Assembly (NCBI GenBank): GCA_013298895.1
Contig: JAAFJM010000003.1
Span: forward strand, 62,001-126,000
Direction of reading: 5' to 3'
Origin: Bacteroidota bacterium
GTDB taxonomy: Bacteria > Bacteroidota > Bacteroidia > UKL13-3
DNA length: 64,000 bases
Below the pieces are notes generated by a model, which saw only the letters and a program-made list of their open reading frames with translations, was not told the DNA's origin and made no database searches. The position numbers and the translations under genes are program-made. Positions 1,184-4,499 of the stretch are shown piece by piece; position 1 is the first letter of the stretch, and each line of letters starts with the position of its first letter.

Positions 1184-2092
1184 CTAAATCAAACATAAAA
1201 TGGCTTCTTCAATTCTTTTATATTTAAACTCAAAACCTTCGTTTATTAGTTTTTCAGGATAAACCCACCTACTTTTTAACAATAACTCAGTTTCGGTATT
1301 TATTAACCACGCCCCTATTTCTAAAAGCCATTTAGGTTGGTTTATACCTATTGGCATTTTTAGTTTTTCTCTTACTTTTTGCATAAAATAAGCATTGGTA
1401 ACTGCGTTTGGAGAAGCTAAATTATACGTTCCTGCGCAGTTAGTATTATTTATAAAATACGCTATTGCGCTGCAAAAATCATCTACATGAATCCAACTGA
1501 ACATTTGTTTTCCATTACCAGCTTTACCTCCAAGTCCAAATTTAGCCAAGTTCTTAAATGGTACCATTACGCTTTTATCCTTTTGTAAAACAATGGCAAT
1601 TCGTAAGTTAATTTGCCTAACTTCATTAAATGAAAAACTATAAAACAATTGCTCCCATTTTTGACAAACATCAACACTAAAACCTTCGCCAATAATTCCG
1701 TTTGTTTCTGTATTTGGCTTTTCATATTCATTTCTGTAAATAGTTCCAGAAGCCGCGTTCATCCAAACTTTGGGTTTTTGTTTACATTGTTTTATGGCTT
1801 CGCCTAAAATGGCTGTACTATCTAATCTTGAAGCATAAATTTCGGCTTTGTTAGCTTCATTGTACCTGCAATCTACCGATTTTCCAGTAAGGTTAATCAA
1901 TGCTTCAGCACCTTCCAATTCAGCGGCCCAATTACCTAAACTCTTAGCATCCCAATTTATAAAAGTGATGCCATTTGCTGTTTTTGAATTACCTCGTGTT
2001 AATACAATTACAAGGAATTTATCTTTAAAATAATTGGCTAATTCTTGGCCAATAAATCCGCTTCCACCCGCTATAATAATTTTCTTTTTCAT
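1184..2092 (-). CDS. TIGR01777-type NAD(P)-binding epimerase/oxidoreductase
   Basis: 302-residue extended SDR-like protein of the TIGR01777 family (E. coli YfcH relatives); substrate unknown. The Rossmann glycine motif GGSGFIG is at residues 9-15, followed by the typical ALINLTGKSVDCRY segment and, near the C-terminus, the family's helical DUF1731-like end. The start was set at the ATG at 2092 (MKKKIIIAGG), because 16 extra upstream codons would only overlap the preceding gene; a single base separates the upstream TAG stop from this ATG, so translation is probably coupled. It is the last gene of the cluster that begins with the GbsR-type regulator at 4449. Confidence 0.85.
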   Translation of the reverse strand: MKKKIIIAGGSGFIGQELANYFKDKFLVIVLTRGNSKTANGITFINWDAKSLGNWAAELEGAEALINLTGKSVDCRYNEANKAEIYASRLDSTAILGEAIKQCKQKPKVWMNAASGTIYRNEYEKPNTETNGIIGEGFSVDVCQKWEQLFYSFSFNEVRQINLRIAIVLQKDKSVMVPFKNLAKFGLGGKAGNGKQMFSWIHVDDFCSAIAYFINNTNCAGTYNLASPNAVTNAYFMQKVREKLKMPIGINQPKWLLEIGAWLINTETELLLKSRWVYPEKLINEGFEFKYKRIEEAILCLI

Positions 2093-2093
2093 G

Positions 2094-2930
2094 CTAAAAT
2101 AATTTAAAAACCAAAGGATAAATAGCCAATCTAAATACAAACCAACTTACACATAACCAAGCAGATATTTGATATAATTTTACTCTCTTTAAATGCTCTA
2201 AAAACATAAACATATAAACCATTCCGTAACTTACAGGAGCAAGAAGTGAAATATTAAATCCTAATTCTTGAATCACTAATAAACCAATTCCTAAGGCTCC
2301 TAAAAGCAATGCACCAAACAAAGAAACAGCAGCAATTTGTCCCGCATAATCGTAAAAGTTTTTCTGTTTTAATCCATAAAACACCAAAGCTTGAATAGGA
2401 AATTGCGATGTGTATAAAACAAAATCAGGAAACTGCATTTGGGTGTTTAAAAACGAAGGTAAAAAAGTATGGAAAAACCAAGTTACTGTAACATGAACCA
2501 CTAAGCCACAAAATACTATAAAAGCCAACCTGTATGTTAAGTTTTTTTCAGGATTACAGTCGTTATTTTGCGGACTTTTTCCGGGTGCAATCATTTTTCT
2601 GTTGTACGAAATAAAATTGTACAACCTATTTAAAAACCAATAAACCAAAGGTTGTTTTCCTATTTTAGCCATTTTAGGAAAACTAAAACCAATTATTTTT
2701 AAAAGACTATCCATACCATAAGTAATTTCATTATTGGTGCTATCAACTAAAGCTATTTTATTGCAAGCTAGGTTTTTATCAATTCGCGCATCGCCTTCAA
2801 AATCAAAGTCGGCAAATGCTGTGCGGCCATTTTTATCTAACATACCTTGTTTTATAAATTGGCTTGTGTATGCATTACAAAGCGGACATTCAGCATCGTA
2901 AATTAAAGTATGATTGGTTAAAGTTTTCAT
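2094..2930 (-). CDS. DCC-type thiol-disulfide oxidoreductase (DUF393) with membrane domain
   Basis: 278 residues. The N-terminal ~120 residues are a DUF393/YuxK domain with the redox motif YDAECPLC (C15, C18), a thioredoxin-like CxxC family thought to act in thiol exchange. From about residue 130 onward there are several hydrophobic segments (for example LAFIVFCGLVVHVTVTWFF and IAAVSLFGALLLGALGIGLLVI), so this is a longer, membrane-anchored version of the usual ~130-residue DCC protein. It sits one base upstream of the TIGR01777 gene. DUF393 genes next to TIGR01777 oxidoreductases and GbsR regulators are, to my knowledge, recurrent in Bacteroidota, but the shared function is not known. Confidence 0.8.
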   Translation of the reverse strand: MKTLTNHTLIYDAECPLCNAYTSQFIKQGMLDKNGRTAFADFDFEGDARIDKNLACNKIALVDSTNNEITYGMDSLLKIIGFSFPKMAKIGKQPLVYWFLNRLYNFISYNRKMIAPGKSPQNNDCNPEKNLTYRLAFIVFCGLVVHVTVTWFFHTFLPSFLNTQMQFPDFVLYTSQFPIQALVFYGLKQKNFYDYAGQIAAVSLFGALLLGALGIGLLVIQELGFNISLLAPVSYGMVYMFMFLEHLKRVKLYQISAWLCVSWFVFRLAIYPLVFKLF

Positions 2931-2968
2931 GGTATTAGCTCAGTATTATATCATATTTTCTGTTTTTC

Positions 2969-3077
2969 AACTCCTTAAGAGTTGTGTTCATTGCTAGTTT
3001 TTTACAACCGAGTTTCACTCGGTGTTATTTACATTTAACTCCTTCGGAGTTCTTTATTACATTAACTCCGAAGGAGT
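2969..3077. repeat. Cluster of four short palindromes
   Basis: The gap between the DCC gene and the small membrane protein gene holds four hairpin units in about 110 bp: AACTC..GAGTT (2969-2983), ACCGAGT-TTC-ACTCGGT (3007-3023), AACTCC-TTC-GGAGTT (3037-3051) and ACTCC-GAA-GGAGT (3065-3077). They share the ACTCC/GGAGT theme and 3-nt loops. They resemble REP-like intergenic units and could also end or attenuate transcription between the two genes. Confidence 0.7.
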
Positions 3078-3093
3078 CGAATTACTCAAAAAC

Positions 3094-3465
3094 TTAGTTT
3101 CCAAGTGCTTGGTTTTCTTTGGCTTTACGTTTGCCTCTAAAAAATAAATATAAGTTGAAGAATAGCATCAAACCAAGGTAAATAGAAAATCCACCAACTT
3201 TTAAGCTCAATACTTCTAATAAAGTTTGTCCGTTAAAAACCTCATAATTGGTTTTAAGCATCAGCATGGCAAAGCCAATATTCAATAAATAAAATCCAAC
3301 TCTAAATAAATGGTTGGTTGATTCTGCTATTTCTACTCTGCCTCTAAATATATCAAGCATAAAAATTTTACCACTGTTAAAAAGAGTTTTGGCCACATAA
3401 TAAGTTAAAAATAAGGTAACAGGTAAGTAAACCGAGTAAGCTGCAATTAAAAAATTGTCGTTCAT
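3094..3465 (-). CDS. Small membrane protein, paralogue A
   Basis: 123 residues, no named family recognised. It has about three hydrophobic segments (residues ~8-28, ~54-70, ~88-110) and a basic, polar C-terminal tail (RGKRKAKENQ), so the tail is probably cytoplasmic. It aligns end to end with the next gene upstream: both have YLP near the start, a polar centre with a VE(I/L)A motif and the block GFYLLNIGF / GYYLLNLGY. The two are a tandem duplication, 21 bp apart, downstream of a GbsR/MarR-type regulator. Similar short proteins occur widely in Bacteroidota with no assigned role. ATG at 3465 is the only reasonable start. Confidence 0.75.
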   Translation of the reverse strand: MNDNFLIAAYSVYLPVTLFLTYYVAKTLFNSGKIFMLDIFRGRVEIAESTNHLFRVGFYLLNIGFAMLMLKTNYEVFNGQTLLEVLSLKVGGFSIYLGLMLFFNLYLFFRGKRKAKENQALGN

Positions 3466-3486: not shown

Positions 3487-3855
3487 TTAATGATTGTTTG
3501 AGTATAATTTTTGAATTTGTTTATTAAAGTGCGAAAAGGTGTACATATTAAAATAATGCATCATTGCTAAACCAATTATAAGCATTCCAATGCGTTTGCT
3601 TAACTCCTCAATTAATTGAGTAAAGGAATTTATTTCTGAAAAAATATGGATTGAAACTGCTGCATATCCTAAATTTAGCAGGTAATAACCTAACAATAAA
3701 AATTTGTTTAAAATGCTTGCTAGCTCTACGTTTGAATTAAATGCGTCATTTAAAAATACAATCCCTTTTTTATATAAAACCCAACCTACAATTACTGTAA
3801 TGTAAAATGCAATTGGGAGGTAAATGAGGTAACTTATAAAATTACAATTATTCAT
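3487..3855 (-). CDS. Small membrane protein, paralogue B
   Basis: 122 residues, paralogous to the protein at 3094-3465 (shared YLP, NVELA/RVEIA, and GYYLLNLGY/GFYLLNIGF blocks), with about three membrane segments. It is the first gene after the regulator's terminator, and its upstream region carries a near copy of the inverted repeat found at the regulator's own promoter (3864-3891), which suggests direct control by that regulator. No catalytic residues are evident; a role in membrane homeostasis or transport is only a guess. Confidence 0.75.
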   Translation of the reverse strand: MNNCNFISYLIYLPIAFYITVIVGWVLYKKGIVFLNDAFNSNVELASILNKFLLLGYYLLNLGYAAVSIHIFSEINSFTQLIEELSKRIGMLIIGLAMMHYFNMYTFSHFNKQIQKLYSNNH

Positions 3856-3863
3856 AAAGTTTC

Positions 3864-3891
3864 TGTATTTTCAGTTTTTATTGAAAGTTTG
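3864..3891. promoter_or_regulatory. Imperfect second copy of the GbsR-type operator
   Basis: Right arm TGAAAGTTTG (3882-3891) matches 9 of 10 bases of the operator arm at 4490-4499, left arm TGTATTTTCA (3864-3873) matches 7 of 10 bases of the other arm, and the 8-nt spacer is identical in length. It lies 8 bp upstream of the ATG at 3855. No convincing TAnnTTTG box was found here. Confidence 0.5.
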
Positions 3892-3897
3892 TTTTCT

Positions 3898-3921
3898 AAA
3901 AAAACTCCAATTTCAGGAGTT
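3898..3921 (-). terminator. Rho-independent terminator after the GbsR-type gene
   Basis: On the minus strand AACTCC and GGAGTT form a 6-bp stem around a 7-nt loop, followed directly by a run of T. It lies 21 bp past the regulator's stop codon and separates its transcript from the small membrane protein genes, or acts as a leaky attenuator. Confidence 0.55.
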
Positions 3922-3942
3922 GTAAGATTTATTTATAAAATA

Positions 3943-4449
3943 CTATTTTATCATTTTTAATATGGTTCCAAAAAACCAATTTTCATCTGCTTTTAGCATC
4001 ATATCAACCGATTTATCCATTTTGCCTACGAAATTACTTAGGTTATTTATTGTTTCAGTAAACGCTTTTAATTCTTTGTCACTTTGGTCGCCCTCTACTT
4101 CTTTTAGTCCATTAAGCACTTTTAAAACAGGTTCTATTTCTCTGCGTTTGCGCTCCCTGGCTATAATCCTAGCAATTTCCCAAATATCTTTTTCAGCTAC
4201 AAAATATTCCTTTCTATCTCCCGGAACCAACTCTTTATTAATTAAAGTCCAATTCATCAATTCGCGTAAATTCATATTGGCATTTCCGCGCGATACATTT
4301 AATTGTTCCATAATATCTTCGGTACACAATGCGTTTGGACTAATTAATAATAAAGCATGAACTTGTGCCATGGTTCTATTTATCCCCCACTCGCTTCCTA
4401 AAGTTCCCCAAGTTTGAATAAATTGTTTTTTGGCTTCTGTTAAATTCAT
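3943..4449 (-). CDS. GbsR/MarR-family transcriptional regulator
   Basis: 168 residues with the winged-helix pattern of the GbsR/MarR group: MNLTEAKKQFIQTWG opening, then a helix-turn-helix around CTEDIMEQLNVSRGNANMNLRELM (residues ~45-68), a wing (ELVPGDRKEYFVAE) and a helical dimerisation tail. ATG at 4449 was chosen over an in-frame TTG six bases further upstream, because a -7 box already overlaps that TTG. The gene is followed by a terminator and then by the small membrane protein, DCC and TIGR01777 genes in the same direction. A 10-bp inverted repeat covers its -33 element, so autorepression is likely. The ligand is unknown; GbsR of Bacillus senses choline, but that cannot be carried over. 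Confidence 0.88.
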   Translation of the reverse strand: MNLTEAKKQFIQTWGTLGSEWGINRTMAQVHALLLISPNALCTEDIMEQLNVSRGNANMNLRELMNWTLINKELVPGDRKEYFVAEKDIWEIARIIARERKRREIEPVLKVLNGLKEVEGDQSDKELKAFTETINNLSNFVGKMDKSVDMMLKADENWFFGTILKMIK

Positions 4450-4452
4450 GCA

Positions 4453-4483
4453 CAAATGTAATTGAATATTTTAAACTTTCAAT
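4453..4483 (-). promoter_or_regulatory. Promoter of the GbsR-type regulator (leaderless geometry)
   Basis: The minus strand carries ATTG (-33, 4480-4483), exactly 19 nt, then TACATTTG (-7, 4453-4460), a full match to TAnnTTTG. Only 3 nt separate the -7 box from the ATG, so the transcript probably starts at or next to the start codon. Confidence 0.75.
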
Positions 4484-4499
4484 TATTTCTGAAAGTTTA
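4472..4499. promoter_or_regulatory. Operator: perfect 10-bp inverted repeat over the -33 box
   Basis: TAAACTTTCA (4472-4481) and TGAAAGTTTA (4490-4499) are exact reverse complements separated by 8 nt. The centre covers the -33 element of the regulator's promoter, the usual place for a repressor site. A degenerate copy with the same spacing lies at 3864-3891. Confidence 0.7.

Follow-up and report, generated by a model that had tools for sequence, protein, structure and literature searches.

Results

Identification of the Regulator Locus

A GbsR-type regulator encoded in a Bacteroidota genome is likely to be an autoregulated repressor that controls a local gene module through two candidate operators, O1 and O2, as judged from sequence comparison across related loci. 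The proposal that one operator would be used twice, for autoregulation and for control of the local gene set, came from a sequence-only reading of the same DNA, and the comparative evidence lends it strong support. The source genome is MAG-like and comprises 3.6 Mb over 90 contigs. The window, which is the whole 64-kb stretch of DNA that was analysed, contains on its minus strand genes for a glutamate dehydrogenase, the regulator of 168 residues, two small membrane proteins (M1 and M2), a DCC-domain protein and a TIGR01777 epimerase. The sequence-only reading had named a GbsR-type regulator, paralogous membrane proteins, a DCC protein and a TIGR01777 protein, and all of these identities were found to be correct by profile, family and identity scores.

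The regulator gene (3946–4449, minus strand, ATG at 4449) is present as a single copy in the source genome and encodes a winged-helix protein of the GbsR/Mj223 type. The best match in both sequence and fold is Mj223 (PDB 1KU9), an archaeal protein whose operator and function are unknown, and which has been the template for GbsR-family models (PMC6207618). The profile of the regulator matches 1KU9 with an E value of 4.6e-23 over positions 2–151, and the AF2 model (pLDDT 88, monomer) aligns with it over 143 residues with a Z score of 16.7. The modelled protein has the N-terminal winged helix and the C-terminal helical dimerisation region of 1KU9, as predicted for a member of this fold family. 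Matches to MarR-type Pfam models are weak, and the score against the NCBIfam CudC equivalog is 40.9 bits, which is below its cut-off of 218. Residues Trp-13, Trp-20, Phe-82 and Trp-157 are invariant in the regulator alignment (A1) and may be candidates for the aromatic-cage ligand site expected close to the linker in this family.

No choline, glycine-betaine or opu genes were identified among the neighbours in the window or among the families of recurrent neighbours that were examined in relatives. Judged by the neighbours examined and by the CudC score, placement in the osmoprotectant sub-groups GbsR, OpuAR, OpcR or CudC is not supported. Nor were cyd genes recognised in the window neighbourhood or in the neighbour families examined, where part of the neighbours were identified.

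Candidate Operator O1 and the Regulator Promoter

Candidate operator O1 (4472–4499) has the sequence TAAACTTTCA-ATTATTTC-TGAAAGTTTA. It is a perfect 10-bp dyad with an 8-nt spacer that covers the −33 box of the regulator promoter, in agreement with the sequence-only reading. When up to three mismatches are allowed, the O1 pattern has one match in the window, O1 itself (0.06 expected), and the 18-base core at zero mismatches occurs at O1 alone in the whole genome. On the minus strand the arm of O1 reads TTGAAAG, and its TTG (4480–4482, minus strand) is the −33 element, 19 nt ahead of the Bacteroidetes −7 box TACATTTG (4453–4460, minus strand), which is followed by the putative start site and the ATG at 4449. 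Because the −7 box almost abuts the start codon, the mRNA of the regulator is expected to have almost no leader.

The same geometry, TTG-N19-TAnnTTT[GA], recurs in other loci, where the right arm of O1, TTGAAA, provides the −33 TTG. Among the 67 dereplicated loci that contain O1 when one mismatch is allowed, the TAnnTTT[GA] box begins 9–12 nt past the O1 28-mer in 60, with a mode of 11, corresponding to 19 nt after the TTG. In one related genus (L063, L064 and L070) the regulator promoter retains the left arm TTTCA, and the right arms are TATAA or TAAAA-like; the operator in this genus may have shifted.

Candidate Operator O2 and Its Surroundings

Candidate operator O2 (3864–3891), TGTATTTTCA-GTTTTTAT-TGAAAGTTTG, is a degenerate dyad with the same 8-nt spacer as O1 and arm matches of 7/10 and 9/10. 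It is situated between the intrinsic terminator of the regulator gene (3898–3919, minus strand; CTCC-loop-GGAG followed by T7) and the next start codon, and it ends 8 bp before the ATG of M1 at position 3855, so the arm matches, spacing and distance claimed for the second copy agree with the sequence. Both predicted operators are inverted repeats of the AT-rich kind that is expected at or near the target promoters of the GbsR/Mj223 family. Before O2 a T tract (−13 to −6), which in the window is the tail of the terminator hairpin, is kept in 32–41 of 47 loci at most positions, and 32 of the 47 have a G at −5 or −4.

Judged from the source genome alone, O2 is at chance level. The 18-base core is found with two to three mismatches at 13 places besides O1, one of which is O2, and a reversed control pattern is found at 26. 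With 12 other places at three mismatches or fewer, O2 is not significant by itself and becomes convincing only through its conservation in other loci. Most of these 12 sites lie inside open reading frames; the motif is rarely ahead of genes elsewhere in the genome, the one other case being a three-mismatch site outside open reading frames and 73 bp ahead of a gene (L011).

Neither a canonical −7 box after O2 nor a recognisable −33 box overlapping it was seen in the loci examined. A role for O2 as a promoter −33 site was rejected, since a TAnnTTTG box is absent at the proper distance downstream. Either a non-canonical downstream promoter overlaps O2, or O2 blocks elongation.

Conservation of the Dyad across Regulator Loci

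The loci compared were 31 regulator matches from 97 related genomes and 80 named loci chosen by protein alone, labelled Cytophagales, Chitinophaga, Pedobacter, Mucilaginibacter, Rufibacter, Pontibacter, Sporocytophaga and others. Removal of regulators more than 90% identical left 73 loci. In 64 of the 73 loci an exact TTTCA-N8-TGAAA lies no more than 110 bp upstream of the regulator, and 67 have it when one mismatch is allowed; directly after the regulator the exact core is found in 46. Dinucleotide shuffles of the same regions gave 0.1 (upstream) and 0.06 (after the regulator). Spacers of 4 to 13 other than 8 gave no exact upstream match in the 73 loci. The motif thus proved to be present at homologous GbsR loci, on which the earlier proposal depended.

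When the second site is counted anywhere within 2 kb of the regulator start, it is exact in 52 of the 73 loci and absent as an exact copy in 21. Six regulators lack O1 even at one mismatch. Variation in the recognition helix does not cleanly follow the loss of O1, and covariation of the helix with dyad loss was dropped as uninformative, because some regulators with the NMT variant have the dyad and others lack it. Elsewhere in the regulator loci there are five exact dyads in 722 kb. This is a cleaner background than that of control upstream regions, of which 22 of 730 contain a dyad, a value that is too high, as O1 or O2 overlaps with some of the control regions. Flanking sequence is unalignable across the loci, and the dyad and its spacer length are retained. 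In three loci (L050–L052) an additional four-TM gene lies between the regulator and O2.

Co-occurrence with the Regulator and Unlinked Copies

Regulator matches occur in 128 of 395 genomes of the class, and genes of the M family, mostly as two tandem copies, in 48 of the 395. Both are present together in 46 of the 48 M genomes (Fisher test, 3e-23, uncorrected for relatedness); such tests overstate the significance because related genomes are not independent. Among the 128 genomes that have a regulator match, 43 contain the exact 16-base dyad AACTTTCA-N8-TGAAAGTT, as compared with three of the 267 without one. Of these three, G302 has a weak partial regulator match and G406 is 59% complete. Most regulator genomes lack the exact 16-base pattern, since true sites differ from one another beyond the core. 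In G019, which has M genes and no regulator match, the 6 kb surrounding the M genes contain no exact dyad.

In ten genomes the M genes are on another contig or megabases away from the regulator and are apparently unlinked to it. Some of these are fragmented assemblies, and in G389, G140, G353 and G373 the position of the regulator deep within a long contig shows that the two are separate. The exact dyad stands ahead of the unlinked M genes in nine of the ten (G389, G133, G068, G140, G353, G410, G373, G264 and G278), the exception being G172.

Three genomes of one genus (L260/G167, L262/G095 and G134:C293) also contain an exact dyad distant from the regulator. In L260 and L262 this dyad precedes a radical-SAM gene that resembles mqnE, as named from its sequence, and in L260 it shares the TTG-N19-TACTTTTG geometry of O1; a tie of this distant target to menaquinone synthesis is possible. 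In L257 (G140:C70) an exact dyad is situated 34 bp before three consecutive open reading frames for small membrane proteins, which do not adjoin the regulator.

Predicted Target Genes

M1 (3487–3855, minus strand, 122 residues) and its paralogue M2 (3094–3465, minus strand, 123 residues) are 32% identical. The AF2 model of M1 contains helices at residues 2–38, 43–71, 78–109 and 111–121. M1 matches no Pfam or NCBIfam family at cut-off and no PDB sequence, and a Foldseek search of its fold against the PDB returned nothing at an E value of 0.001 or better, a result that does not in itself prove a new fold. The DCC thiol-disulfide oxidoreductase gene (2094–2930, minus strand) matches PF04134 with an E value of 6.1e-10 and 40.8 bits (cut-off 27.8); the domain spans residues 9–113, and the C-terminal half is hydrophobic as read from the sequence. 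The epimerase (1184–2098, minus strand), with Epimerase and DUF1731 domains, matches TIGR01777 over positions 1–292 of 292 with 252 bits (cut-off 207.35).

Across the loci, O2 is directly ahead of M genes in 16, DCC genes in eight, TIGR01777 genes in seven, genes of another four-TM family in seven and a fatty-acid desaturase gene in one. As it precedes differing genes, O2 travels with the regulator and not with any one gene. Among all the clustered loci, TIGR01777 is present in 66, DCC in 29, M in 29, the other four-TM family in 18, an SRPBCC-like family in 15, DUF2071 in seven and the desaturase in six; the SRPBCC-like family was named from the start of its sequence and has no Pfam match. The DCC gene in the window begins 163 bp behind M2, and in a relative of the same genus (L049) the gap is 18 bp. 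Inclusion of the DCC and TIGR01777 genes in the regulon, as proposed earlier, is supported by this short gap and by the loci in which O2 directly precedes either gene.

The interval between M2 and the DCC gene in the window contains a cluster of small palindromes (2968–3077), with ACTCCTTCGGAGT present twice in opposite orientation, CAACTCC..GAGTTG and ACCGAG..CTCGGT. The 13-mer, at up to two mismatches, occurs three times in the window, always within the cluster (0.34 expected). These palindromes are candidate REP-like elements or terminators.

In two Taibaiella loci O2 is followed by open reading frames of 127–156 residues from another family, four in a row in L131 and one in L135. These apparently stand in for M1 and M2, and the one that was searched had no Pfam match. 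In L073 the regulator is followed by an extended cluster that encodes a fatty-acid desaturase, a PEMT-DCC fusion, a PF17648 luciferase-domain protein, a DUF4166 protein and a TIGR01777 protein, which hints at lipid chemistry.

Discussion

Proposed Mechanism and Alternatives

Sequence conservation, positions, co-occurrence and the dyads at unlinked M genes were computed; from the genes and sites we infer binding, repression over activation, a signal or ligand, a downstream promoter and a pathway. A dimeric regulator of the GbsR/Mj223 type would recognise two TTTCA-N8-TGAAA dyads within the locus that encodes it. By covering the −33 element at O1 it would shut off its own promoter, resulting in negative autoregulation. 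O2 begins a few bases after the terminator, and a few to tens of bases separate its end from the next start codon; the regulator bound there would block transcription of the downstream genes at initiation or in early elongation. Release of the regulator by a signal, either a small molecule or derived from the membrane, may then induce the module, which would consist of the tandem M proteins, the DCC thiol oxidoreductase and the TIGR01777 epimerase, and in other species also of DUF2071 proteins, SRPBCC-like proteins and a fatty-acid desaturase. Judged by the types of genes alone, the module probably serves membrane redox or lipid homeostasis. From the same gene types a light or photo-oxidative role was considered, and it was dropped for want of evidence.

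The position of O2 allows two other accounts of what happens there. It is unlikely that O2 is an auxiliary site that supports looping or stops read-through coming from the regulator promoter, with promoterless downstream genes transcribed by terminator read-through. This would suit the near-fixed distance of O2 past the terminator T tract in most loci that have O2, and the lack of a canonical −7 box after it, but the dyad is still found ahead of unlinked M genes with no regulator gene upstream, where a promoter must therefore exist. We consider it distinctly unlikely that the regulator, while repressing itself at O1, uses O2 to activate the genes downstream. MarR-type proteins do include activators (PMC6207618), and O2 is beside a T tract, with a TTTG-like sequence in about two-thirds of the loci; since a canonical −7 box is absent past O2, the promoter of the downstream genes may be weak. 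However, the end of O2 is at most about 35 bp from the start codon in most loci, which is downstream of the usual position of an activator, and the GbsR-family members that have been studied are repressors (PMC6207618).

The link between dyad and regulator could also be questioned. Some other protein might bind the dyads, or they might function as RNA or terminator structures, with the GbsR-type neighbour incidental; O2 would be transcribed under read-through, and a weak 5-bp stem could then form. This is highly improbable, given that in about 90% of loci O1 covers the promoter ahead of the regulator start, that the exact dyad and the regulator gene co-occur across genomes, and that G019, with no regulator match, has no exact dyad at its M genes. 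Close relatives do share sequence, and O2 alone does not exceed chance in the source genome, yet there is hardly any probability that chance or shared ancestry of the upstream sequence, instead of selection, explains the dyads. The loci, which after dereplication share at most 90% regulator identity, were drawn from many differently labelled groups, the dyad and spacer length are kept where the flanks cannot be aligned, and the locus counts, the shuffles and the 722-kb background all contradict it.

Comparison with Known Systems

The autoregulated repressor proposed here resembles GbsR and OpcR of B. subtilis, which belong to the same Mj223/1KU9 fold family, have AT-rich inverted-repeat operators and are reported to show autoregulation (PMC7396694). 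OpcR acts at the −35 region, as predicted O1 covers −33, and GbsR is a roadblock downstream of the start (PMC7396694), near the position of O2. In B. subtilis these two positions are split between two proteins, whereas here one regulator appears to use both. The targets also differ, as GbsR and OpcR control the compatible-solute genes gbsAB, opuB and opuC, and the GbsR half-sites are 4 bp apart in contrast to 8 bp for the dyads described here. CydE of Alishewanella and relatives is likewise a GbsR-family protein that represses neighbouring genes (PMC6207618), but it controls cydAB, and no cyd gene is among the neighbours identified here. The module epimerase shares the TIGR01777 family with ThyD, SDR39U1 and YfcH, and its score of 161 against the ThyD equivalog is below the cut-off of 400.

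Of 179 GbsR-type proteins grouped previously, 73, mainly from Euryarchaeota and Bacteroidetes, have a neighbourhood that is uninformative on function; for the Bacteroidetes proteins no consistent neighbourhood was reported and the process was unassigned (PMC6207618). In the literature, of which few subscription papers were covered, we found no earlier description of a TTTCA-N8-TGAAA operator or of this gene set, and nothing relevant on TIGR01777, DCC operons, a link to light or COG1510. Likewise, we came across no report there of a regulon that unites TIGR01777 with DCC and M proteins, and no assigned role for DCC, TIGR01777 or M genes in a GbsR-type context.

Implications for the GbsR Family in Bacteroidia

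A broader reading, which we put forward tentatively and hold to be rather less probable than not, is that this Bacteroidia branch of GbsR-type proteins governs an undescribed membrane homeostasis pathway and responds to a membrane-derived or quinone-like ligand, with promoter occlusion and downstream blocking by one regulator in one locus. Such a pathway would combine DCC thiol chemistry, a TIGR01777 reductase, a lipid desaturase, DUF2071 and SRPBCC-like proteins and the new family of tandem small membrane proteins.

The same palindrome occurs in the regulator's own promoter and ahead of membrane, redox and epimerase genes in many Bacteroidia, and the locus adds a membrane protein family (M) with no Pfam or NCBIfam match at cut-off and no PDB match. 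For the Bacteroidetes GbsR-type proteins, the dyad provides a predicted operator and a route to distant targets. With a core predicted target set of DCC, TIGR01777 and M-type genes, a previously unassigned group of regulators becomes directly testable.
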